From an uncultured Eubacteriales bacterium (GTDB lineage: Bacteria > Bacillota > Clostridia > Christensenellales > Aristaeellaceae): a DNA stretch of 33,734 bases. The notes under the pieces were generated by a model that saw only the letters and a program-made list of their open reading frames with translations, was not told where the DNA came from and searched no databases. Of this stretch, positions 12,473 through 25,248 are shown piece after piece. A program made the translations under genes and the position numbers. Each line of letters starts with the position of its first letter. Within the stretch, counting starts at the first letter, position 1. The stretch spans positions 1 through 33,734 of the forward strand of contig CADBCY010000034.1 of assembly GCA_902793325.1 (NCBI GenBank). The letters run 5' to 3'.

Positions 12473-15037
12473 TTATTTCCAGAACAGGGGGAAGTCCGGG
12501 TTGGAGTAGATCGCCTGCGGATGCTGGGCGAACTTTTGGGTATATGCCTTGTCGATGGTCTTCTCCGTGACGTAGTTGACGAATTCCTCCACCGTCAGCA
12601 CGCCGTCCTTCGGCTGATTGTCGCCCTTCAGATCCCGGATCGCTTCGGCCATGACCACGGAAAACCCGTTGCCCTCATCGTAATCAGAGCCGAAGGACTC
12701 TTCGTTCCGATCGCAGCCGACGAACAGGATGATGCGGTCGTCCCTGAAATCCGGGACGTCCAGCGCACGCCCGGAGAGGCAGGAATCCAGCAGCACCACC
12801 TTCGTCCCCCGCATCATTCGGATGGCCCGCGCGAGCACGGACAGGCTCATGAAGCTTTTGGCGTCCAGCACCAGGTCGCCCTTGTGCGCATGCTCGCGGT
12901 CCACGCCCTGCCCGTGGGCGGTGACGTACAGTATGAACACGTCCCGGTCCGAGACATAGTCCGCGTCGTCGTTGATCAGCGACAGCAGCCTGCCGGCCGT
13001 GATGTTCAGGTATTTGCTCGTGTGCAGCGTTTTGCCGTTGGTCTCCTTCAACGCCTGGTTGATCGCCTCGGTGCCGTAGTAAAACCGGTCGTTCAGTTTT
13101 GTGCCGTCAGCGTTAAGCCCGGTCTGGCCGACGCACAGCGAAATCATATTCCGCTCCAGGGGATACCTGGACCCGCGGATGGCCGTGACCTTGCCCTTGC
13201 CGCTCACGGTGAAGCGCAGCGCGAAGAAGCCGGGATGCTTCTCCCATACGAACTGCTTGACCCACTTCTGCGCCCCGATATCGCCGGTGTACGCCGGGTT
13301 TTCCTCCCAGCCGTTCTGCCTCAGGACCTTCTGCGCCTTCGACCACGACATCCCCGGGACCACGCCGCCCAGGGTGTAGCTCTGCTTGCCGTCGGAGGTG
13401 AGGTAGATGTAGTCCACCATGCCGATGCCATAGGGGTAGGGATCGGAATAATCGCCCAGGGAGAGCCCCTTGAGGCCCCAACTGCCCTCCCCGGCCCTGT
13501 TCCACTTCAGCTTCAGCTTCTTGGCGACCTTGTTCGCGGGCTTGCCGACGTAGTCGCTCAGCTCGATGCGCGCTTTGCCCTTTTTGACCTTGACGGTGAT
13601 GGTCGCCGTCTTGCCGCCCGCCGTCGCGGTGATCTTGGCGGTTCCCGCGCCCCTGGCCCGGACGAGGCCCGCGGCGTTGACCGTGGCCACCTTGGGCTTG
13701 TTGCTGTGCCACTTGACGCCCTTGTTGCAGAATTCCGGGGAGACGGTGGTCGTCAACTGGAGCGCGTCCCCGACCGTCAGGGTTTTCTTCTTGCCCTGGT
13801 TGATCTTCACCTTCTTCGGGGAAACAGAAAGCACGGTCAGTTCAAGCTTCAGCGTGCGTTTGTCGGAGAGGGTCAGCGTGATTTCTGCGGAACCCGCTTT
13901 CTCCGCGATCACGATGCCGTTATCGAGGACGTCGATGACGCCCGACGGCGAAAACTCATAGCGTTCGATGTACGCGGGCGCGGCGAGATGGATCTGTTCG
14001 CCGACGAACATGACGTAGCTGGTATCCTTGTCGACGTAGACCGTCTCCATATTGTCCGGCGGCAGCGTGACCACGGGGCCCGTGCTGGGCGACGCAGAAG
14101 GCGACGCAGAGGGCGACGCGGAAGGCGATGCGGAAGGCGATGCGCTGGGTGACGCGGAGGGCGATGCGGAGGGCGATGCGCTGGGCGAGGCGGAGGGGTT
14201 CAAGGTGGCGAGGTTGTGCGCGTTGGCGTAGTCGTCCGCCGCCGACCCGGGGGAGCAGTAGAGCGTGAGCTGCTCGCCGCAGTCTTTGAAGACATCGATG
14301 CCGAGCCGGGTTACGCTGTCGGGGATGTCCACGCGCTCGAGCGCGCCGCACTCCGCGAAGACCATGCCGTCCAGGGCCGTGACCGACGCGGGGATCGTGC
14401 ACCGCACGAGGCCGGAGCACTTCCAGAACGTGCCGTGTGGCAGCATCTCCAGGCTGTCCGACAGCGCGACGGAGGCCATGTCCCTGCAGCCGTAGAAGAC
14501 CGCGTTTCCCAGGGTGCGCACGCGGTTGGGCAGGGTGATGTCCTGCAGGCAAACGCAGTTCATAAAGGCGTATTCGCCGATGCGCTCCAGGCTCTCCGGG
14601 AGCGTCGCGGAAACCAGCTTCGAGCAGCCGGCGAAAGCGTTCGCGCCGATGGCCTTGACGCCGGCCGGCACGGTCACGGAGGTGATGCTGTTGTTGACGT
14701 AGAACGCCTTCTCCCCGATTTTCTCGATGCACAGGTCGGCGGGGATCGCCACGTCGCCGCCCGCGCCGTTATACCCGGTGAGCACCCCGTCCGTCACGGT
14801 GAAATCGCCGCTGTTGGGCGCGGCGGACATCGCGTCGCTCAGGTTCACCAGGCCGAGCTCCCGGGACTCGCCGTCCCATTCCGCGCAGACCTGCGAATCG
14901 GAGATCAGCGCCTCGTCCGGGGCGGGTTCGCGTTCGCTCCATGCGTCCGGGTTGATCGCTTCGCCGGGGACGAATTCTGCCAGCGCACAGGGCAGAAGCA
15001 TGGCCAGGCATACCACGATTGCCAGAAACCGCTTCAT
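12473..15037 (-). CDS. Secreted BspA-like LRR - Ig-like - caspase-like (C14) protein
   Basis: An 854-residue exported protein. Signal peptide 1-20 (CALA before Glu-Phe). Residues about 95-260 are LRR_5/BspA-type repeats (KIGEKAF, AIGANAF, RIGEYAF, TLGNAVF). Residues 281-318 are a Ser-Ala-Ser-Pro linker. Residues about 330-490 include a Big_2-like Ig domain (VKWHSNKPKVATVNAAGLVRA). After a region of unknown fold, residues about 640-854 resemble peptidase C14: His708 in YVTAHGQG and Cys753 in LLDSCLSG form the expected dyad. No LPxTG, S-layer or membrane anchor is seen at the C-terminus, so it should be released or held by its repeats. The ATG at 15037 has AGAGGTGG five bases upstream and a promoter 116 bases before it. 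Substrate and autoprocessing are unknown; clostripain-type C11 is less likely because of the DSCLSG motif. Confidence 0.87.
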   Translation of the reverse strand: MKRFLAIVVCLAMLLPCALAEFVPGEAINPDAWSEREPAPDEALISDSQVCAEWDGESRELGLVNLSDAMSAAPNSGDFTVTDGVLTGYNGAGGDVAIPADLCIEKIGEKAFYVNNSITSVTVPAGVKAIGANAFAGCSKLVSATLPESLERIGEYAFMNCVCLQDITLPNRVRTLGNAVFYGCRDMASVALSDSLEMLPHGTFWKCSGLVRCTIPASVTALDGMVFAECGALERVDIPDSVTRLGIDVFKDCGEQLTLYCSPGSAADDYANAHNLATLNPSASPSASPSASPSASPSASPSASPSASPSASPSASPSTGPVVTLPPDNMETVYVDKDTSYVMFVGEQIHLAAPAYIERYEFSPSGVIDVLDNGIVIAEKAGSAEITLTLSDKRTLKLELTVLSVSPKKVKINQGKKKTLTVGDALQLTTTVSPEFCNKGVKWHSNKPKVATVNAAGLVRARGAGTAKITATAGGKTATITVKVKKGKARIELSDYVGKPANKVAKKLKLKWNRAGEGSWGLKGLSLGDYSDPYPYGIGMVDYIYLTSDGKQSYTLGGVVPGMSWSKAQKVLRQNGWEENPAYTGDIGAQKWVKQFVWEKHPGFFALRFTVSGKGKVTAIRGSRYPLERNMISLCVGQTGLNADGTKLNDRFYYGTEAINQALKETNGKTLHTSKYLNITAGRLLSLINDDADYVSDRDVFILYVTAHGQGVDREHAHKGDLVLDAKSFMSLSVLARAIRMMRGTKVVLLDSCLSGRALDVPDFRDDRIILFVGCDRNEESFGSDYDEGNGFSVVMAEAIRDLKGDNQPKDGVLTVEEFVNYVTEKTIDKAYTQKFAQHPQAIYSNPDFPLFWK
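14084..14197 (-). repeat. 12-bp tandem repeat encoding (Ser-Ala-Ser-Pro)n
   Basis: Nine to ten 12-base units (plus-strand form GGCGAYGCGGAR) encode the SASP linker between the leucine-rich repeats and the Ig-like part. Unit number is likely to vary between strains by slippage; the length keeps the frame. Confidence 0.9.
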
Positions 15038-15159
15038 TCTAACCACCTCTGTATTGCGAAATTCCCGTCCCGCGGGCCGCCGGGTCCGGCCATGCGGCCG
15101 TCGCCCCGGCGGCGGGAGCCTTGCGGGGAACCGCGTCGCCGCAAGCCTGTTTATGCCTG

Positions 15160-15188
15160 ATTTTACCACAGCCAAGGCAGGTTGTCGA
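15160..15188 (-). promoter_or_regulatory. Promoter of the secreted caspase gene
   Basis: On the minus strand TCGACA (15188-15183), a 17-base spacer, then TAAAAT (15165-15160). Five of six -35 bases and five of six -10 bases match consensus. Confidence 0.7.
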
Positions 15189-15371
15189 GGGCGAATTCCG
15201 CGCGATGCGCACGGCTGCGAAAAGGGCCGATTCTCTCCAGCGCGCGCCCGGAGAATCCAACAAATCAATCTGTTCCATGGGTTTTATGGCGGCCTTTTTT
15301 CCCCGGTTTTTTGCGCGTTTTCAGACATTCCGCCCGGATTGTCTATGGTTTTTTCCGGAAAAGCGGCGTAA

Positions 15372-16110: not shown

Positions 16111-16135
16111 TATTCGAACATTGGAGGAATGCGTC

Positions 16136-16711
16136 ATGCGTTCTACGAAGCTCATTCGCACGGCCAAGGCCGGATACCTCACCCTTTCGGCGGCGTTCTG
16201 CGCCCTGGGTGCTTTCCTGATGCTCCGCCCCGGCCTTTCCGTCCCGTTGATCGAGCGGATCGTGGGGGTGGGCATGGTGGCCTTCGGGCTGGTAAAGCTG
16301 CTGGGCTACTTCTCCCGGGACCTGTACCGGCTGGCGTTCCAGCACGACCTGGCCTTCGGGAGCCTGCTGGTGGCCATGGGGCTGCTGCTCCTGCTGAAGC
16401 GGGGCGCCGTGATGAGCCTGCTGTGCTCGATACTGGGCGTGGCGGTGGTGGCGGACGGCTTCTTCAAGGCGCAGACCGCCCTGGACGCCCGGCGCTTCGG
16501 CCTCTCGAGCTGGTGGCTGATGCTGGTCGTGGCCCTGGCCGCCGGGGCGGTGGGCGTGGCGCTCGTCGCCTGCCCCGCCGCCAGCGTCCGGGCGGCCACC
16601 CGGCTGCTGGGCTTCTCCATGCTGATGGAGGGCGCGCTGAACCTGTGCGTGGGCCTGTGCGCGGTGAAGATCATCCGTCACCAGTGCGGGGAGTCCCGCC
16701 AATACCTGTGA
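16136..16711 (+). CDS. DUF308/HdeD-like multi-pass membrane protein
   Basis: A 191-residue integral membrane protein with about six helices arranged as three pairs, each with a Gly-rich turn (GVGMVAFGLVKLL, GVAVVADGFFKAQ, GFSMLMEGALNLC). This threefold repeat is typical of the HdeD/DUF308 family, whose biochemical function is unclear apart from HdeD in acid resistance. The ATG at 16136 is preceded by GGAGG eight bases upstream. It sits between the FxLYD-like gene and the MMPL exporter with gaps of 25 and 19 bases, suggesting a helper role in the exporter system. Confidence 0.85.
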   Translation: MRSTKLIRTAKAGYLTLSAAFCALGAFLMLRPGLSVPLIERIVGVGMVAFGLVKLLGYFSRDLYRLAFQHDLAFGSLLVAMGLLLLLKRGAVMSLLCSILGVAVVADGFFKAQTALDARRFGLSSWWLMLVVALAAGAVGVALVACPAASVRAATRLLGFSMLMEGALNLCVGLCAVKIIRHQCGESRQYL

Positions 16712-16730: not shown

Positions 16731-18815
16731 ATGCGTTTTTCCAGATTCATTGTCAAGAGCCGCGTGGTCATACTGGCGCTGGCCATCGCGCTGCTGGTGC
16801 CGTCGGCGATCGGCATGGCGGCCACCCGCGTGAACTACGACATGCTGACCTACCTGCCCGGGGACATCGACACCATGGTCGGGCAGGACGAGCTGATGAA
16901 CGAGTTCGGCAAGGGCGCCTTCTCCTTCGTCATCATCGAGGGCATGAGCGACGAGGACGTGTCGAAGCTGCGCGACCGCATCGAAACGGTGGAGCACGTG
17001 GAGTCCGCCATCTGGTACACCAGCTTCGCGGACCTGTCCATCCCCAAGGAGCTGCTGCCGGACAAGCTGTACGATGCCTTCAACGCCGGCGACGCCACCA
17101 TGATGGCGGTGTTCTTCGACGGCACCACCTCCGAGGACGGCACCATGGCTGCCTTCCAGGAGATCCGCAGGATCTGCGGCGAGCAGTGCTTCGTCTCCGG
17201 CATGACGGCCATGGTGCTCGACCTGAAGGACGTGTGCCGGAAGGAGGAGCCCATCTACGTGGCCATCGCCGTGGCGCTGGCTGTGGCGGTGATGATGCTC
17301 CTGCTGGACAGCTTCCTGGTGCCGCTGGTGTTCATGGCCTCCATCGGCATGGCCATACTCTACAACATGGGCACGAACGTCCTGCTGGGGGAGATCTCCT
17401 TCATCACGATGGCGCTGGCGGCGGTGCTGCAGCTGGCGGTGACGATGGACTATTCCATCTTCCTCTGGCACAGCTACAACGAGCAGCTTGAAACCTATGC
17501 CGACAAGCAGGAGGCCATGGCCGTGGCCATCCAGAAGACGCTGTCGAGCGTGGTGGGCAGCTCCATCACCACGGTGGCGGGCTTCGTGGCGCTGTGCTTC
17601 ATGAGCTTCAAGCTGGGCCTGGACATGGGCCTGGTGATGGCCAAGGGCGTGGTGCTGGGCGTGATCGGCTGCGTGACCATACTGCCCGCCATGGTGCTGC
17701 TGCTGGACAAGCCCCTGCAGCGGACCCGCCACAAGGCGCTGATCCCCGACATGCAGAAGTTCGCCGGGGCGGTCACGAAGGCGTTTCCCGTGTTCGTGGC
17801 GCTGTTCGTGCTACTGGTGGCGCCCGCCTACGGCGCCTACCGCCAGGCCAACGGCGAGGTGTACTACAACCTCGGCGCGGCGATGCCGGAGTACATGCAG
17901 TACTCCATCGCCCAGCGCAAGCTCGAGGATACCTTCCACGTGGCGTCCACGCACATGCTGCTGGTGGACGCCGGCACCTCCGAAAAGGACATCCAGGCGA
18001 TGATCGACGAGATGGAGCAGGTGGACGGCGTCAAGTACGTGCTGGGGCTGGAGAGCATGACCGGCGCGACCATTCCCCGGGAGATACTGCCGAAGCGCAT
18101 CGTGGAAAAGCTGCGCGGCAAGCACTGGGAGCTCATGCTGATCAACTCCGACTACGCCGTGGCCAGCGACGAGGTCAACGCGCAGTTGGGGACGCTGAAC
18201 GAGATCCTGAAGAAGTACGACCAGCGGGGCATGCTCATCGGCGAGGCCCCCTGCATGAAGGACATGATCGAGATTACCGACCACGACTTTCAGGTGGTCA
18301 ACCTGGTGTCTATCGCGGCCATTTTCGCGATCATACTGCTGGTGACGCGCAGTGTCAGCCTGCCCTTCATACTGATCGCGGTGATCGAGCTGGCCATATT
18401 CATCAACCTGGGCTGCGCGCACTACCTGAAGCAGAGCCTGCCCTTCATCGCGCCCATCTGCATCTCGACCATCCAGCTGGGCGCCACGGTGGACTACGCC
18501 ATCCTGATGACCACCCGCTACAAGACCGAGCGCACCGCCGGCAAGTCCCGGCGCGAGGCCGTGGCCATCGCGCTGTCCACCTCCGCGCCGTCGATACTCG
18601 TCAGCGGCATGGGGCTGTTCGCGGCGACCTTCGGCGTGGGCCTGTATTCCGACATCGACATCATCAGCTCCATCTGCATGCTGCTGGCCCGCGGCGCGAT
18701 TATATCGATGGTGCTGGTCATACTGGCGCTGCCGGCGATGCTGATGCTGTTTGACGGCCTCATCCGCCGCACCACCCTCGGTATGAGGGTCAAATCCGCA
18801 AAGGAGGAAGGTTGA
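16731..18815 (+). CDS. MMPL/RND-family transporter
   Basis: A 694-residue integral membrane exporter of the MMPL family, with about 11-12 helices in two halves, each with an extracellular loop (residues 30-170 and 370-520). The proton-relay Asp-Tyr pairs are present in both halves: Asp240-Tyr241 (VTMDYSIFL) and Asp588-Tyr589 (ATVDYAILM), matching the functional pairs in MmpL3-type proteins. Length and halves are complete. Unlike many Firmicutes MMPL proteins, the loops do not contain Leu-x-x-Gly heptads; these are on the next gene instead. AAAGGG lies nine bases before the ATG, and the next gene starts three bases after its stop. Lipids or hydrophobic compounds are the usual substrates; the one here is unknown. 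Confidence 0.92.
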   Translation: MRFSRFIVKSRVVILALAIALLVPSAIGMAATRVNYDMLTYLPGDIDTMVGQDELMNEFGKGAFSFVIIEGMSDEDVSKLRDRIETVEHVESAIWYTSFADLSIPKELLPDKLYDAFNAGDATMMAVFFDGTTSEDGTMAAFQEIRRICGEQCFVSGMTAMVLDLKDVCRKEEPIYVAIAVALAVAVMMLLLDSFLVPLVFMASIGMAILYNMGTNVLLGEISFITMALAAVLQLAVTMDYSIFLWHSYNEQLETYADKQEAMAVAIQKTLSSVVGSSITTVAGFVALCFMSFKLGLDMGLVMAKGVVLGVIGCVTILPAMVLLLDKPLQRTRHKALIPDMQKFAGAVTKAFPVFVALFVLLVAPAYGAYRQANGEVYYNLGAAMPEYMQYSIAQRKLEDTFHVASTHMLLVDAGTSEKDIQAMIDEMEQVDGVKYVLGLESMTGATIPREILPKRIVEKLRGKHWELMLINSDYAVASDEVNAQLGTLNEILKKYDQRGMLIGEAPCMKDMIEITDHDFQVVNLVSIAAIFAIILLVTRSVSLPFILIAVIELAIFINLGCAHYLKQSLPFIAPICISTIQLGATVDYAILMTTRYKTERTAGKSRREAVAIALSTSAPSILVSGMGLFAATFGVGLYSDIDIISSICMLLARGAIISMVLVILALPAMLMLFDGLIRRTTLGMRVKSAKEEG

Positions 18816-18818
18816 ACC

Positions 18819-21800
18819 ATGAATATGAAACTGTATCGCGCCCTGTCCCTGCTGCTGACGCTGGCGCTGTTCTGCGGCGCGGCCGCGCCTGCCTTTGCGG
18901 AGGACAAGAAGGAAACGGTGTTCGTGCTGGCGGACGCCCTGGGCAACCCCAATCAGGTGACCGTCAGCGAGCGGCTGTACAACCCGGACGGGCTGGACGT
19001 GCTGCAGGACGTCAGCAGCCTGTCGGACATCGAGCGCGTGGACGGCGGCCCGGCGGGCGACGGCGCCGACGGCGCGCTGACCTGGCAGGCCGACGGCCGG
19101 GAGGTTCGCTACGAGGGTTCGAGCGACGCGCCGCTGCCCGTGGGCGTGCACTTCGCCTACAAGCTGGACGGCGAGGCGATCGCCCCCGAGGCGCTGGCCG
19201 GCAAGAGCGGCCACCTGGAGATCGACGTTACCTATGAATCGCTGCAGTCGGAGGACGTGGAGGTCGCCGGCGAAACGGAGCGCATGGCCGTGCCCTTCCT
19301 GATGGCCACCGTAATGGTCATCGACGAGGACGTGTTCGACAACGTGCAGGTGGAGAACGGCAAGGTGATCGACGCCGGCAACCTGCGGGCGGTGCTGTGC
19401 TACGGCCTGCCCGGCGTCAACGAGGCGCTGCGGCTGGACGAGTACGAGGACATCGATATCGACATCACCTCCGCCAGCAAGATCACCGCGGACGTGACGA
19501 ACTTCGCCTTCTCCGGGACCTATACCATCGCTTCCAACGCCATATTCACCGACCTGGGCAAGGACAGCGACCTGGACCTGGACGTGAACGACATGAGCGG
19601 CGATCTGACCGACGCCGTGACCCAACTGCTGGACGGCGCGGACGAGCTCTACGGCGGCGCGGACGCCCTGGCGGACGGCGCGCGGCAGCTCGACGACGGC
19701 ATGGGCGACCTCGCCGGCGGCGCGGCTCAGCTCGCGGACGGCGCGGGCGACCTCACCGGCGGCGCGCGGCAGTTGAACGGCGGCGCGAACGACCTCGCGG
19801 ACGGCGCGAGCGAGCTGGCGGACGGCGCGAGCGACCTCGCGGACGGCGCGCGGCAGCTCGACGACGGCGCGGGCGACCTTGCGGACGGCGCGGGCAAGCT
19901 GAACGACGGCGCGGGCGACCTCGCGGACGGCGCGCAGCAGCTCGACGACGGCATGGGCGACCTTGCGGACGGCGCGGGCAAGCTGAACGACGGCGCGGGT
20001 GACCTCGCGGACGGCGCGCAGCAGCTTGCGGACGGCACGAGCGACCTTGCGGACGGCGCGCAGCAGCTCAACGACGGCGCGGCCCAGCTCGCGGACGGCC
20101 TGCGGGAGATCGACGACAACAGCCAGGTGCTCAACGACGGCGCCAGGCAGATCTTCGAGGCCATCATCGACAGCGCCAACGAAGGCCTGGAGGAGAAGCG
20201 CGCCGACTTTGAGAAGCTGGACATCGAACTGAAGCCGCTGACCATCGGCAACTATTCCGGCGAGATCCGCCGCCTGCAGCGCGAGCTGCTGGACAAGGTG
20301 GAGGACTACGTCTACAGGGAGGCCGACCGGACGCTGGCCGAGAAGGTCCGCGCCGCGGTGGCGGACGAGGTGGACCGGCAGGTGCGCCTGGCCGCCCACG
20401 CGAAGGTGGTCTCCGCGGTGAAGGACGCGGCCCGCAAGAAGGTGCGCGCCGAAGTGAAGGACGCCGCCAAGGACCTGGTGCGCCAGAAGGTCAACGAGGG
20501 CGCGCGGGCGAAGGTGCGCGAACAGGTGGAGGCCGCCGTGGGCCAGAAGGTGCGCGAGGCGGTGGAAGCCGCGGCCCGGCAGCAGGTGGAGGCCATGGTG
20601 CGCAACCCTGATGAGGCCGCGCTGGAGGCCGAGGCCGACCGCCGCGTAAAGAGCGAAGCCGTGCAGGCGCAGATCGACGCCGCCGTAGCGGAGCAGATGC
20701 AGTCCCCCGCCGTGCAGGGCATGATCGACCAGCAGTTGGAAGCGGTCGTCCGGCCGCAGGTGGAGGCCGCCGTGCAGGCGCAGGTGCGCCAGCAGGTGAC
20801 CGCCGCCGTGGAGGAACAGGTGCGCCGGCAGGTGACCGCCGCCGTCGAGGAACAGGTGCGCCGGGAGATCCTGGCCAACCTGGGCCAGGAGGAAGCCAGC
20901 CCCGGCAGCGCCGCCGAGCCCGCGGAGGAAGCCGAGCCCGCCGAAGCGCCCGCGGAGGAAGCCGCGCCCGCGGAGGATGCCGCGGAGGACTCCGCACCGG
21001 AATTCGCGGACGAGGGGGAGGAAGCGTCCGAGCCCGCGCCCGAAGGAGCGGCGGAAGCGGAGGACAAGGCCGAAGACAAGACCGAAGACAAGGCCGAAGC
21101 GGAGGATCAGCCCGAGCCCGAGGACAAGACCGAGCCCAACGGCGCGGACGAAGGCGCGGAGGAAGGCACGGAGGCGGCCGAAACCGTCCCCGGGAAGCAG
21201 CCCGAGGTCGCGGAGGCGGACGAAGCGGTGAATCCGGAGAAGGTACAGGTGCCCGCAGAGGCCGCGCCCGCGGAGGCGTCCGCGCAGAAGGGCGACGCCG
21301 AACCCGCGGAGGAAACCAGGCTGGACGCCGGCGAATCCGAAGCGGCGGAAGAGGCGGAAGCCCCGAAGGCCGGGAAGAAGGGCGGAAAGTCCAAGTCCAG
21401 GAAGGGCGGGAAATCGAAGAAGGCCCGCAAGGCGAAGAAGAGCGGGAAGGCGAAGAAAGCCGGAAAGCGGACGAAGTGCGCCGAGGGCGTCCTCTCCCTC
21501 TCGAACCTGATCCCCGCCGCCCAGGCGGAGGAGGCGGACATGGAAGCCCAGCTTGCAAAGCTGGTGGCGCAGCAGATGGCCGACCCCGCGGTGCAGGCGA
21601 AGATCGACGCCGCCGTGGCCGAGCAGATGGCCGGCGCGGAGGTACAGGCGAAGATCGACGCCGCCGTGGCCGAACAGATGGCCGGCGCGGAGGTGCGCGC
21701 GAAGGTCGACGCCGCCGTGCAGCAGAAGCTCCGGGACCCCGACGTTCGCGCCCAGGCGGAGGCCCAGGCCGAGGCGAAGGTGCGCGAACAGGTGGAGGCC

Positions 21801-23048
21801 GCCGCCCGGCAGAAGGTGATCGACGCCATCCGCAGCCTGCCCGAGTCGCAGATTCCCGCGGCCGTGGAGGAGAAGATGCAGAGCGCCGAGGTCCAGGCGC
21901 AGATCGACGCCGCCTGCAAGGCCAAGATGGGCGCCGAGGACATCGTGCAGACCATCGAGGCCGAGACGGACAGGCAACTGGCCGCGCCCGAGGTGCAGGC
22001 CATGATCGAAGCCGAGTATGAAAAGCAGTTGGGCTCCGACGAGGTGCAGCGCACCGTGGACGCCAACGTGAAGAAGTACATGGCGTCCGCCAAGGTGCGC
22101 CGCCTGGTGGACAAGAACGTGAACGAGCAGATGGCCAGCGGCAAGGTGCGCCGGCTGATCGACCAGAACATCGACGAGCAGATGCGTTCGCAGAAGGTGG
22201 CGGACATCATCGCCGAGAACATCGCCGACCAGAAGAAGAAACCCGCCTACCTGAACGGCGTGGCGGACGCCCTGGAGGAGAACGGCGAGAACGGCGCCGC
22301 CTACCGCTCCCTGGCGGACCTGATGGACAGCCTGGACGACGTGCGGACCTTCTACGAGGGCCTCGTGGACTACACCGACGCCGTGGGCCAGGCCGCGGAC
22401 GGCGCGCGGACGCTGAGCGGCGGCGCGGGCGACCTGCTGGACGGCGTGAACGCGCTGGACGACGGCGCGAACAGCCTGCTGGACGGCGCGCTCCAGGTGT
22501 CGGACGGCACGGGCGACCTGCTGGACGGCGCGGCGCAGCTGAAGGGCGGCACGGGCGACCTGCTGGACGGCGCGAACGCGCTGGCGGACGGCGCGCAGAC
22601 GCTGAGCGGCGGCACGGACGACCTGCTGGGCGGCGCGAACGACCTGCTGGACGGCACGGGCGCGCTGGCGGGCGGCGCGACGAACCTGCTGGACGGCGCG
22701 GGCCGGCTGGCGGACGGCACCTTCGACCTGCTGAGCGGCGCGGAGCAACTGGAGGCCGGCGCGGGCGACCTGCTGGACGGCTCGGAGCAGTTGTACGGCG
22801 GCGCGGACGACCTGCTGGACGGCGCGCAGCAGCTCCGCGACGGCATGGGCAAGCTGAAGGACGGCATGAACGAGTTCAACGACGAGGCCATCGAGAAGCT
22901 GGTCAGCTTCCTGACCGACGACCTCGAGGTGGTGTCCGATCGCGCCACCGCCATGCTGGACCTGGCGAAGGACTATCGCTCCTACTCCGGCATCGCCGAG
23001 GGCATGACGGGCATGACCCAGTTCATCATTAAGACCGAGGGCGTCTGA
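18819..23048 (+). CDS. Giant secreted Leu-x-x-Gly heptad-repeat protein with acidic and lysine-rich core
   Basis: A 1409-residue exported protein. Signal peptide 1-27 (AFAE). Residues 30-255 form a beta-rich N-domain (KKETVFVLADALG; TYTIASNAIF). Residues 270-445 are heptads of the LADGAxQ/LDDGAGD type (TIGR03057-like). Residues 480-690 are charged helical repeats rich in Ala, Val, Glu and Gln; 694-847 are Glu/Ala/Pro acidic; 849-887 are Lys/Gly-rich and histone-tail-like; 908-1141 are 17-residue repeats (AKIDAAVAEQM). A second heptad array (1193-1350) and a conserved-looking end (SYSGIAEGMTGMTQFIIKT) follow. No membrane helix after the signal. It starts four bases after the MMPL stop with AAGGAGG inside the MMPL gene, so it is probably its extracellular partner. 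Its function is unknown; YhgE/Pip-like proteins share only the heptads. Confidence 0.88.
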   Translation: MNMKLYRALSLLLTLALFCGAAAPAFAEDKKETVFVLADALGNPNQVTVSERLYNPDGLDVLQDVSSLSDIERVDGGPAGDGADGALTWQADGREVRYEGSSDAPLPVGVHFAYKLDGEAIAPEALAGKSGHLEIDVTYESLQSEDVEVAGETERMAVPFLMATVMVIDEDVFDNVQVENGKVIDAGNLRAVLCYGLPGVNEALRLDEYEDIDIDITSASKITADVTNFAFSGTYTIASNAIFTDLGKDSDLDLDVNDMSGDLTDAVTQLLDGADELYGGADALADGARQLDDGMGDLAGGAAQLADGAGDLTGGARQLNGGANDLADGASELADGASDLADGARQLDDGAGDLADGAGKLNDGAGDLADGAQQLDDGMGDLADGAGKLNDGAGDLADGAQQLADGTSDLADGAQQLNDGAAQLADGLREIDDNSQVLNDGARQIFEAIIDSANEGLEEKRADFEKLDIELKPLTIGNYSGEIRRLQRELLDKVEDYVYREADRTLAEKVRAAVADEVDRQVRLAAHAKVVSAVKDAARKKVRAEVKDAAKDLVRQKVNEGARAKVREQVEAAVGQKVREAVEAAARQQVEAMVRNPDEAALEAEADRRVKSEAVQAQIDAAVAEQMQSPAVQGMIDQQLEAVVRPQVEAAVQAQVRQQVTAAVEEQVRRQVTAAVEEQVRREILANLGQEEASPGSAAEPAEEAEPAEAPAEEAAPAEDAAEDSAPEFADEGEEASEPAPEGAAEAEDKAEDKTEDKAEAEDQPEPEDKTEPNGADEGAEEGTEAAETVPGKQPEVAEADEAVNPEKVQVPAEAAPAEASAQKGDAEPAEETRLDAGESEAAEEAEAPKAGKKGGKSKSRKGGKSKKARKAKKSGKAKKAGKRTKCAEGVLSLSNLIPAAQAEEADMEAQLAKLVAQQMADPAVQAKIDAAVAEQMAGAEVQAKIDAAVAEQMAGAEVRAKVDAAVQQKLRDPDVRAQAEAQAEAKVREQVEAAARQKVIDAIRSLPESQIPAAVEEKMQSAEVQAQIDAACKAKMGAEDIVQTIEAETDRQLAAPEVQAMIEAEYEKQLGSDEVQRTVDANVKKYMASAKVRRLVDKNVNEQMASGKVRRLIDQNIDEQMRSQKVADIIAENIADQKKKPAYLNGVADALEENGENGAAYRSLADLMDSLDDVRTFYEGLVDYTDAVGQAADGARTLSGGAGDLLDGVNALDDGANSLLDGALQVSDGTGDLLDGAAQLKGGTGDLLDGANALADGAQTLSGGTDDLLGGANDLLDGTGALAGGATNLLDGAGRLADGTFDLLSGAEQLEAGAGDLLDGSEQLYGGADDLLDGAQQLRDGMGKLKDGMNEFNDEAIEKLVSFLTDDLEVVSDRATAMLDLAKDYRSYSGIAEGMTGMTQFIIKTEGV
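19626..20130 (+). repeat. N-terminal Leu-x-x-Gly heptad array
   Basis: Roughly two dozen 21-base units of GCG GAC GGC GCG type, many pairing into 42-base units (GACCTCGCGGACGGCGCG + CAGCTCGACGACGGCGCG). They encode D-L-A-D-G-A-x / Q-L-D-D-G-A-G heptads; a few units carry Met, Thr or a second Gly. Confidence 0.9.
21597..21698 (+). repeat. Near-identical 51-bp tandem repeat
   Basis: Two consecutive 51-base units (21597-21647 and 21648-21698), each encoding AKIDAAVAEQMAGAEV plus one residue, differ at only a few bases. A third, diverged unit follows. This shows recent duplication inside the helical repeat part of the giant heptad protein. Confidence 0.9.
22399..22870 (+). repeat. C-terminal Leu-x-x-Gly heptad array
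   Basis: About twenty 21-base units encoding DLLDGAx / xLxGGAx heptads. Codon choice (CTGCTGGACGGC) differs from the N-terminal array (CTCGCGGACGGC), so the arrays expanded independently and were not copied from each other recently. Confidence 0.9.
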
Positions 23049-23289: not shown

Positions 23290-25248
23290 ATGAGACGAAA
23301 GACAGCAGCGGTATACATCTCCAATCTCTACATGGACATGGTGCGGGAGACGGTGGAGGGCGTGCAGGAATCCGCCAGGCGGCACGACGTCAAGCTCCTG
23401 TTCTTCACCAGCTTCAGCGATAATTTCAGCAGCCGCCAGTACGCCCGGTACAAGAACTACGATACCGGCGATTTTGTCGTCTTTCTGCTGGCGGACCCGG
23501 GGGAGTACGACGGGCTGATCTCCTTCGATACCTACATGCCGATCCTGTACCTGGACCCGGTGGACCGACTCAAGGCGCAGGCGAATTGCCCGGTGATCAC
23601 GCTGGGCACCGTGAAGGACGGGACGTACAGCGTAGTCAACGACCAGGACCGCTCCATGCGCGAGGTCATCGAGCACGTGATCCTGGCGCACGGCTGCAAG
23701 GACATCATGCACGTGGCCGGGAACCGCGAGATGAGCTTCACCCGGGAGCGCATCGACATCTTCCGCGAGACCCTGGAGCGCTACGGCCTGCCCTGCGGCG
23801 ACGACAGGATCGTCTACGGCGACCTCTCCCCGGAGTGCGGGGACGCGGTGGTGGCGGAGATGCTGGAGCGCCGCGCCGCGGCGGGCATGCCCGCCCTGCC
23901 CGAGGGCATCGTCTGCGCGAACGACTACATGGCCATCGGCGTGTGCAAGGCGCTGCGGCTGCGCGGCGTCCGGGTTCCCCGGGACGTGATCGTCACCGGC
24001 TACGACGACATCCTGCGGGCGAGGTTCAACGAGCCGTCCATCACCACCTCGGCCCAGCCGTTCCGGCAGGTCGGCTGGATGGGCATGGAGGTGCTCGCCA
24101 GCCTCTGGGCCGGCGAGGCGCCCAAGCCCGTGATCGCGGTGCCCGGCGTGCTGGCCTGCCGCCAGTCCTGCGGCTGCGAGCCCTTTTACGTCTACAAGAA
24201 GGATACCATCCGCGAGAAGTACATCGATATGGTGTCCCGGATGGAGAACCTGATCCAGTCCAACACCAACCTCATCCTGGGCGCCGCGACGGACGAGACC
24301 GTGGAGGACGTGTTCAACGAAATCGAGGAGAGCTGCCTGCGGGAGACGGGCTTCCGCGACGCCGTGCTGTGCCTGATCCGCGACTGGGACAAGAAGAAGG
24401 TCATCCGAAGCCGGGCGGACTTGCGGGACGCGACCTTCGACATCGTGTGCGGCATGTACAACGGCCGCCCCGTACGCCGGCGGGCGCTGCCGAAGGGCGC
24501 GCTCGTGCCCGAGGAAATGATGGATTCGCCTGAGCCGTGCTTTCTGTATCCCATCCACCACATGCAGTACTTCATGGGGTATTTCGTCGTGTCGCCCGAC
24601 CTGAAGAACCTCGGGCAGCTGCACATCAAGTCCTGGCTGATGAGCATCAGCACCATCCTGGAGAACTGGTGCATCCGGCGGCAGCTCACGCAGAGCGTCG
24701 AGGAGCTGGAGCAGCTCTACCGCACGGACATGCTGACCGGGCTGTTCAACCGCCGCGGCTACTACATGAGCTTCGAGGAATACTACCGGGCGTGCCGGGA
24801 GGCGCAGACCAACCTGGCCGTGTTCCTGATCGACATGAACCACATGAAGGCCGTCAACGACAACTACGGCCACGCCGAGGGGGATTACTGCCTGTGCGCC
24901 ATCGCGGACGCCATGCGGCGCTGCGCGACGATGGGGGAGATCTGCGTCCGCACGGGCGGCGACGAGTTTGTGGTGCTGGCGAAGCACTACGACCGGGCGC
25001 GGGCGGAGGCCTACGTCCGCGCGCTCCGGGAGGCCCTCGACGAGGTGCGCCGCAGGGACGGCAAGCCTTACGAGCTCTCGGTGAGCGTCGGCTATTCCAT
25101 GATGGTGCCGCCCGCGGACGACGCGATTTCCGCGCAGAACGCCGCGGAGCTGTTCCTGCGGCGCGCGGACCGGGCCATGTACGCGGAAAAGAAGAAGCTG
25201 CGGGAAGGGCTGTGCGGATCGGAAGGCCGGGATGCGCCCATACAATAA
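23290..25248 (+). CDS. Cytosolic LacI-type binding-fold - GAF-like - GGDEF diguanylate cyclase
   Basis: A 652-residue predicted diguanylate cyclase. Residues 5-295 resemble the Peripla_BP_3 fold of LacI repressors (AVYISNLYMDMVRE, GIVCANDYMAIGVCKALRLRG, VIVTGYDD), but there is no signal peptide, membrane helix or helix-turn-helix, so a ligand would be sensed in the cytoplasm. Residues about 310-465 look GAF-like. The GGDEF domain (about 475-640) has the intact motif RTGGDEF at 556-560; the I-site position has Thr and Glu in place of Arg and Asp, so product inhibition by that site is not expected. GAGAGG lies 11 bases before the ATG. It has its own promoter and terminator. This fusion is known in Clostridia; the ligand, perhaps a sugar, is inferred. 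Confidence 0.9.
   Translation: MRRKTAAVYISNLYMDMVRETVEGVQESARRHDVKLLFFTSFSDNFSSRQYARYKNYDTGDFVVFLLADPGEYDGLISFDTYMPILYLDPVDRLKAQANCPVITLGTVKDGTYSVVNDQDRSMREVIEHVILAHGCKDIMHVAGNREMSFTRERIDIFRETLERYGLPCGDDRIVYGDLSPECGDAVVAEMLERRAAAGMPALPEGIVCANDYMAIGVCKALRLRGVRVPRDVIVTGYDDILRARFNEPSITTSAQPFRQVGWMGMEVLASLWAGEAPKPVIAVPGVLACRQSCGCEPFYVYKKDTIREKYIDMVSRMENLIQSNTNLILGAATDETVEDVFNEIEESCLRETGFRDAVLCLIRDWDKKKVIRSRADLRDATFDIVCGMYNGRPVRRRALPKGALVPEEMMDSPEPCFLYPIHHMQYFMGYFVVSPDLKNLGQLHIKSWLMSISTILENWCIRRQLTQSVEELEQLYRTDMLTGLFNRRGYYMSFEEYYRACREAQTNLAVFLIDMNHMKAVNDNYGHAEGDYCLCAIADAMRRCATMGEICVRTGGDEFVVLAKHYDRARAEAYVRALREALDEVRRRDGKPYELSVSVGYSMMVPPADDAISAQNAAELFLRRADRAMYAEKKKLREGLCGSEGRDAPIQ

Follow-up and report, generated by a model that had tools for sequence, protein, structure and literature searches.

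What might a giant secreted protein with two long arrays of Leu-x-x-Gly (LxxG) heptads do beside a membrane exporter? The question is raised by a locus of an uncultured Eubacteriales bacterium (assembly GCA_902793325.1, contig CADBCY010000034.1, positions 1 to 33,734; the whole of this 33,734-nucleotide stretch is hereafter the window), where the gene of an MMPL exporter is directly followed by that of such a protein, here called the partner (Table 1). The passage of lipids or amphiphiles from pumps across the wall of thick-walled bacteria is poorly known, and this conserved partner has no described function; its matched arrays predict a hairpin of tunable length. On balance, we lean towards reading it as an extracytoplasmic stalk subunit of the MMPL exporter, folded as a hairpin rod.

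Matched lengths of the two heptad arrays

The TIGR03057 search proposed in a preliminary description of this DNA matched the partner far above the cut-off, in 13 stretches (NCBIfam, 169.6 bits against 18.6, E = 2.7e-51), and all nine TIGR03057 matches in a profile search of the host genome fall in this gene. Tandem-repeat analysis found both arrays independently, at 19631-20117 (21-, 42- and 84-nucleotide units) and 22397-22834 (21-, 42-, 63- and 126-nucleotide units). Strict L..G heptads of array 1 extend from residue 270 to residue 441 and divide into 24 units, of which 23 have L and 23 have G. Array 2 ends at residue 1349 and starts at residue 1199, or at 1178 with a looser first position and single gaps; residues 1192-1349 divide into 22 units, 20 of them with L and all 22 with G. 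The measured gap of about 740-760 residues agrees with the ~750 given earlier. In the window, nucleotide blocks of one array resemble each other more (0.88 and 0.83) than they resemble blocks of the other array (0.77-0.78), which suggests local expansion of each array.

Array lengths were measured between conserved non-repeat residues in 19 proteins: the window partner, the other 17 intact giants of the genus and one protein from a metagenome-assembled genome (MAG) titled Ruminococcus sp. (L093; L numbers denote loci). Array 1 varies from 111 to 236 amino acids and array 2 from 81 to 207, and in every protein array 1 exceeds array 2 by 28-33 amino acids (r = 0.999, 13 distinct pairs). Such constancy was obtained in 0 of 100,000 permutations (the first 17 proteins give the same), and phylogenetic independent contrasts for 17 proteins on the N-domain tree gave r = 0.9997 with a slope of 1.008, the contrast for array 1 versus the length of the middle region being 0.52. 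A looser scan of the 110 homologous frames surveyed below recovered exactly two arrays in 73 (overall r = 0.81; genus 0.97, order 0.67, class 0.49, with median differences of 2, 2 and 1 heptads, respectively).

This pattern suggests selection for equal array length. Since the arrays are length-matched, we infer that they form one stalk, most likely by pairing in antiparallel orientation, and the extended chain envisaged in the preliminary description gives way to a probable hairpin. A small residue at each seventh position would also suit Alacoils, tightly packed helix pairs of antiparallel orientation that are recognised by such spacing, and the arrays are long helices in AlphaFold2 models of two homologues (L076 and L093). 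The matched lengths, together with these models of modest confidence, point to a hairpin that is probably intramolecular. Antiparallel pairs between molecules would also predict equal lengths, and domain-swapped or bundled partners might build a filament or mesh within the wall, serving only as scaffold or spacer for the exporter, with no conducting role. Such a filament would suit a protein that has no anchor segment after its signal peptide, and the tip, with its acidic and Lys-rich stretches, might attach to wall polymers, but a short homologue (L068, 571 amino acids, 11 and 10 heptads, little middle) fits a simple intramolecular hairpin, and we regard the filament as unlikely.

Secretion of the partner and its transporter neighbours

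The partner is almost certainly secreted. Its best 19-residue hydropathy window begins at residue 9 and marks the sole strongly hydrophobic stretch, which, with the AFA↓ED site, bears out the signal peptide noted earlier; past it, a hydropathy scan of the protein found no window above 1.25 and no anchor segment, and no LPxTG motif was found. The N-terminal beta-rich domain of the preliminary description is all-beta by the AlphaFold2 strands of the same two homologues, which are not models of the window protein, and it matched no family in Pfam or NCBIfam. The FIIKT-like end is likewise present, and a strict FIIKT motif lies within the last 90 amino acids of 79 of the 100 homologues that carry no 3' contig-edge flag.

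A single-sequence search found the N-domain in 32 of 60 relatives; a 15-row alignment then recovered it from 35 of 297 order, 104 of 391 class and 32 of 299 phylum genomes, samples that partly overlap. Every place from the relatives and the order sample was taken as a locus. Four of the 104 class genomes were already included and one place each was taken from 40 of the other 100, mostly higher-scoring and some weak; no new phylum match was fetched. With L093 and the window, the survey comprised 114 loci (four taken for their MMPL gene only) and 110 N-domain frames.

An MMPL gene adjoins the N-domain frame on the same strand in 99 of the 110 (92 directly upstream, 7 directly downstream). In five others (L063, L130, L134, L136, L137) an FtsX-type ABC permease lies upstream instead, with PF02687 in 5/5 permeases and PF00005 in all four ATPase genes tested. 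The remaining six have neither transporter: L050, L056 and L059 are cut off by a contig edge, with an MMPL gene ~0.2-1.7 kb from the end of another contig in each of their genomes; true exceptions are L062, L215 and L161, the last matching only weakly (36.6 bits). The genome of L062 has a second N-domain copy that adjoins an MMPL gene (L159). Pairing with an MMPL gene is thus the rule, though not without exceptions, and the class of transporter varies. The protein had been described as the separate secreted partner of an MMPL exporter, and homologues are not regularly found away from MMPL genes. That it is an MMPL partner is very probable, with the amendment that the transporter is not always an MMPL protein. 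In seven genus loci (L045, L047, L052, L054, L055, L057, L058) the partner precedes the MMPL gene; they form one clade in the N-domain tree, and their MMPL proteins are 49-51% identical to that of the window, versus 73-79% for other giant-type loci with MMPL upstream.

The window MMPL matched PF03176 in two stretches (166.7 bits, gathering score 20.5), the host genome holding one further, short match above the cut-off (27.4 bits), and its closest sequence relatives in the PDB are MmpL4/MmpL5. Its TGA stop (18813-18815) is separated by three bases from the partner ATG at 18819, and a likely ribosome-binding site lies within its end, making translational coupling plausible. The preliminary description placed the heptads of many Firmicutes within MMPL loops or in shorter partner proteins; four phased heptads, the kind of coiled coil covered by the scan, were present in 0 of 103 MMPL frames of at least 250 amino acids in partner loci and in 0 of 13 further frames from 11 other loci, and heptads within MMPL loops were thus not seen here. 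One MMPL protein of 1760 amino acids (L166, 2307-7589) carries a heptad-free stretch of ~1090 residues that separates its two MMPL halves.

A proposed stalk on a separate protein and its competitors

Since the window MMPL has no heptads and the neighbouring gene supplies a much longer pair of arrays, we assign a putative stalk role to the partner. After Sec export and removal of the signal peptide, array 1 would run outward from the membrane side, the middle region would supply the tip and the distal arm, and the chain would return through array 2, pairing heptad for heptad with array 1 as an antiparallel coiled coil. The beta N-domain and the C-terminal FIIKT segment would meet at the stalk base, which would dock on the extracytoplasmic domains of MMPL. 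The rod would carry either exported amphiphilic cargo, whose identity is a guess, or MMPL movement, from the membrane into or across the wall, a role like that proposed for the antiparallel coiled coil within MmpL5 itself. At 0.15 nm per residue, arrays of 172 residues would measure ~26 nm, or ~60 nm should the rod extend through the distal arms, lengths of helix that make wall spanning plausible.

The arms may pair as well, a likely arrangement but a less firm one than array pairing. Between fixed anchors, eight homologues, including the window, have a left arm of 118 and a right arm of 154 amino acids, whereas in five the arms measure 154 and 205, longer by 36 and 51, which amounts to three units on either side. 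Other lengths are 106 and 138 (L086) and 114 and 154 (L084), with both sides far shorter in L093. With the AxA motif as end point, the lengths of the two arms correlate across 14 homologues (r = 0.90), L074 being anchored on another AxA.

Several observations weigh against the stalk as drawn. The arms of L072, at 154 and 256 amino acids, depart from the equal-unit rule. At the base, the L076 model has a C-terminal strand (E982-988, pLDDT <50), and that of L093 has no strand at this position. Six homologues of 303-372 amino acids (L146, L155, L156, L157, L158, L160) are adjacent to MMPL and lack arrays altogether, a stalkless form at odds with a universal stalk. Because of the missing L093 strand and these six homologues, we have lowered our confidence both in the overall reading and in docking by the beta base, which we hold to be slightly better than an even prospect.

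The closest known parallel is MmpL5 of Mycobacterium tuberculosis (MmpS5L5), whose coiled coil, a 196-amino-acid insertion predicted to be antiparallel, is needed for efflux, and whose trimer has been modelled with a 13-nm coiled-coil tube (PMC12501195). Both systems would combine an MMPL transporter with an outward antiparallel coiled coil; in MmpL5, however, the coiled coil lies within the transporter, whereas here arrays of ~172 residues each are carried by a separate secreted protein with its own N-domain. A stalk resembling that of MmpL5 but placed on a separate protein would, by this analogy, be the best mechanism; a tube seems improbable.

Other families compare less closely. MmpS is a small beta-rich operon partner of MmpL that is not known to have a hairpin or heptads, and the MmpS family gave no match to the window partner in Pfam and NCBIfam at E up to 0.1. 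HlyD/CusB-type membrane fusion proteins are extracytoplasmic helical-hairpin partners of RND or ABC pumps; no HlyD-family match to the partner was found in Pfam at E up to 0.1, where only GerD was listed, below its cut-off, and in L063 an HlyD-type gene adjoins the N-domain homologue as a separate protein. YhgE/Pip proteins (TIGR03061/TIGR03062 with TIGR03057) share LxxG heptads between terminal domains, and neither TIGR03061 nor TIGR03062 was listed for the partner at E up to 0.1. Five other heptad proteins bear both domains, the second falling just under the cut-off in the truncated L212. TIGR03057 itself describes the same repeat, but as a model of 28 repeat positions without N-domain, paired arrays or MMPL context. 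In 101 phylum genomes, its nine non-window loci were five YhgE/Pip proteins and four without a YhgE/Pip domain, the latter being the same places as N-domain matches in the class and phylum searches; the other home of the LxxG repeat in these samples is YhgE/Pip.

FtsX-type ABC permeases are a class known for mechanotransmission, and the five loci where the partner family lies behind them favour a mechanical regulator, in which the transporter would move the rod to act on distant wall enzymes and MMPL or ABC energy would serve wall remodelling instead of export. The FtsEX-CwlO-SweCD system provides the comparison (PMC6705773). The upstream TetR-type regulators suit efflux better, though (TetR-family domains in 6/6 upstream open reading frames tested, which were picked for a TetR-like look), and nearby wall-enzyme genes were not systematically searched; we find this regulator doubtful. 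That the partner is a surface adhesin or spacer with no tie to the exporter beyond co-transcription is very improbable, given MMPL adjacency in 99 of 110 frames across a class and a protein with neither LPxTG nor a hydrophobic anchor past the signal peptide.

The same partner next to two energised transporters that are unrelated to each other would suggest an extracytoplasmic module of general use. A far-reaching version would be a modular, transporter-independent trans-wall conduit of Clostridia: bundled hairpins would form an alpha-helical tube of 25-60 nm, with a beta base on MMPL or FtsX-type ABC pumps and a length set by equal heptad addition to both arms, and giants would be cut into two chains at an internal AxA↓EE tip site. 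We consider this conduit a long shot.

Size, tip and surrounding genes

Table 1. Features of the partner locus (window positions).
Feature	Position	Strand	Evidence
DUF308 membrane protein, 196 aa, just 5' of MMPL gene	16121..16711	+	PF03729, E 1.2e-14
MMPL (RND-superfamily) exporter, 694 aa, without heptads	16731..18815	+	PF03176, E 8.6e-49
AAAGGAGG, likely ribosome-binding site of partner gene, within MMPL gene end	18800..18807	+	Read directly
Two-array heptad partner gene	18819..23048	+	ORF, ATG start, 1409 aa; TIGR03057 169.6 bits
Signal peptide, residues 1-27 (AFA↓ED)	18819..18899	+	Hydropathy peak; AxAED kept among close homologues
N-terminal domain, ~residues 28-245	18900..19553	+	Without Pfam/NCBIfam family; all-beta by homologue models
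Array 1, LxxG heptads, residues 270-441; proposed ascending helix of stalk	19626..20141	+	TIGR03057, tandem repeats, strict heptad scan
Left distal arm, helix, Val every 4 residues, 12-residue units, ~residues 444-700	20148..20918	+	Repeats, L076 model, homologue comparison
Variable low-complexity tip, acidic/Ala/Pro then Lys-rich, ~residues 701-887	20919..21479	+	
Tip motif, hydrophobic stretch and AxA↓EE, residues 888-903	21480..21527	+	15/18 intact giants
Right distal arm, 17-residue helical units, residues 904-1177	21528..22349	+	51-nt tandem repeats; L076 model
Array 2, LxxG heptads, residues 1178-1349; proposed descending helix of stalk	22350..22865	+	TIGR03057, tandem repeats, heptad scans
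C-terminal region ending FIIKT (residues 1402-1406, 23022-23036)	22866..23045	+	Homologue motif count, homologue models

Measured from stop to stop in frames without a contig-edge flag, homologues span 610-1636 amino acids in the genus (n = 21, median 1200), 303-1064 in the order group (n = 40, median 629) and 556-1052 in the class group (n = 39, median 763); one edge-flagged genus frame reaches 1819, and N-domain proteins in the class sample mostly have 550-1050. No frame above 1100 amino acids outside the genus was listed in the order, class and phylum searches, and within these samples elongation to giant size is confined to the genus of the window. A run of four heptads is absent from 15 of the 110 frames: three cut by contig ends, the six of 303-372 amino acids, and L062, L070, L142, L161, L243 and L251. 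From the size range and the array-less frames, the N-domain is the constant part and the stalk the variable part. In L043, L048 and L060 the frame stops in the repeat-rich middle, leaving one array, through either sequencing error or real loss. The genus relatives include MAGs titled roe deer rumen and jejunum, goat ileum and sheep duodenum, others with RUG numbers, which we take to be rumen sets, and the isolate S12M_St_22, of unstated source.

Around the low-complexity tip, the spacing of the innermost anchors varies from 92 to 410 amino acids in 16 genus proteins, and the right arm consists of 15-residue helices in the L076 AlphaFold2 model. A hydrophobic stretch with AxA↓[ED]E marks the tip/right-arm junction in 15 of the 18 intact giants, window included (absent in L041, L044 and L049), and resembles either a signal-peptidase site within the chain or a conserved hydrophobic patch at the tip.

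A DUF308 gene is found immediately upstream in 19/24 genus, 3/35 order and 4/38 class loci, a count that covers MMPL-paired loci with 0.9 kb or more of sequence on that side. Further upstream, the minus strand (12476-15268) encodes a protein with BspA-type LRR (PF13306), Big_2 and a PSAS repeat stretch, in which a caspase-like HG...DSC pattern was seen by eye and none was reported by Pfam. Downstream of the partner, on the plus strand (23290-25248), a LacI-type sugar-binding domain is fused to GGDEF, possibly a ligand-sensing diguanylate cyclase.
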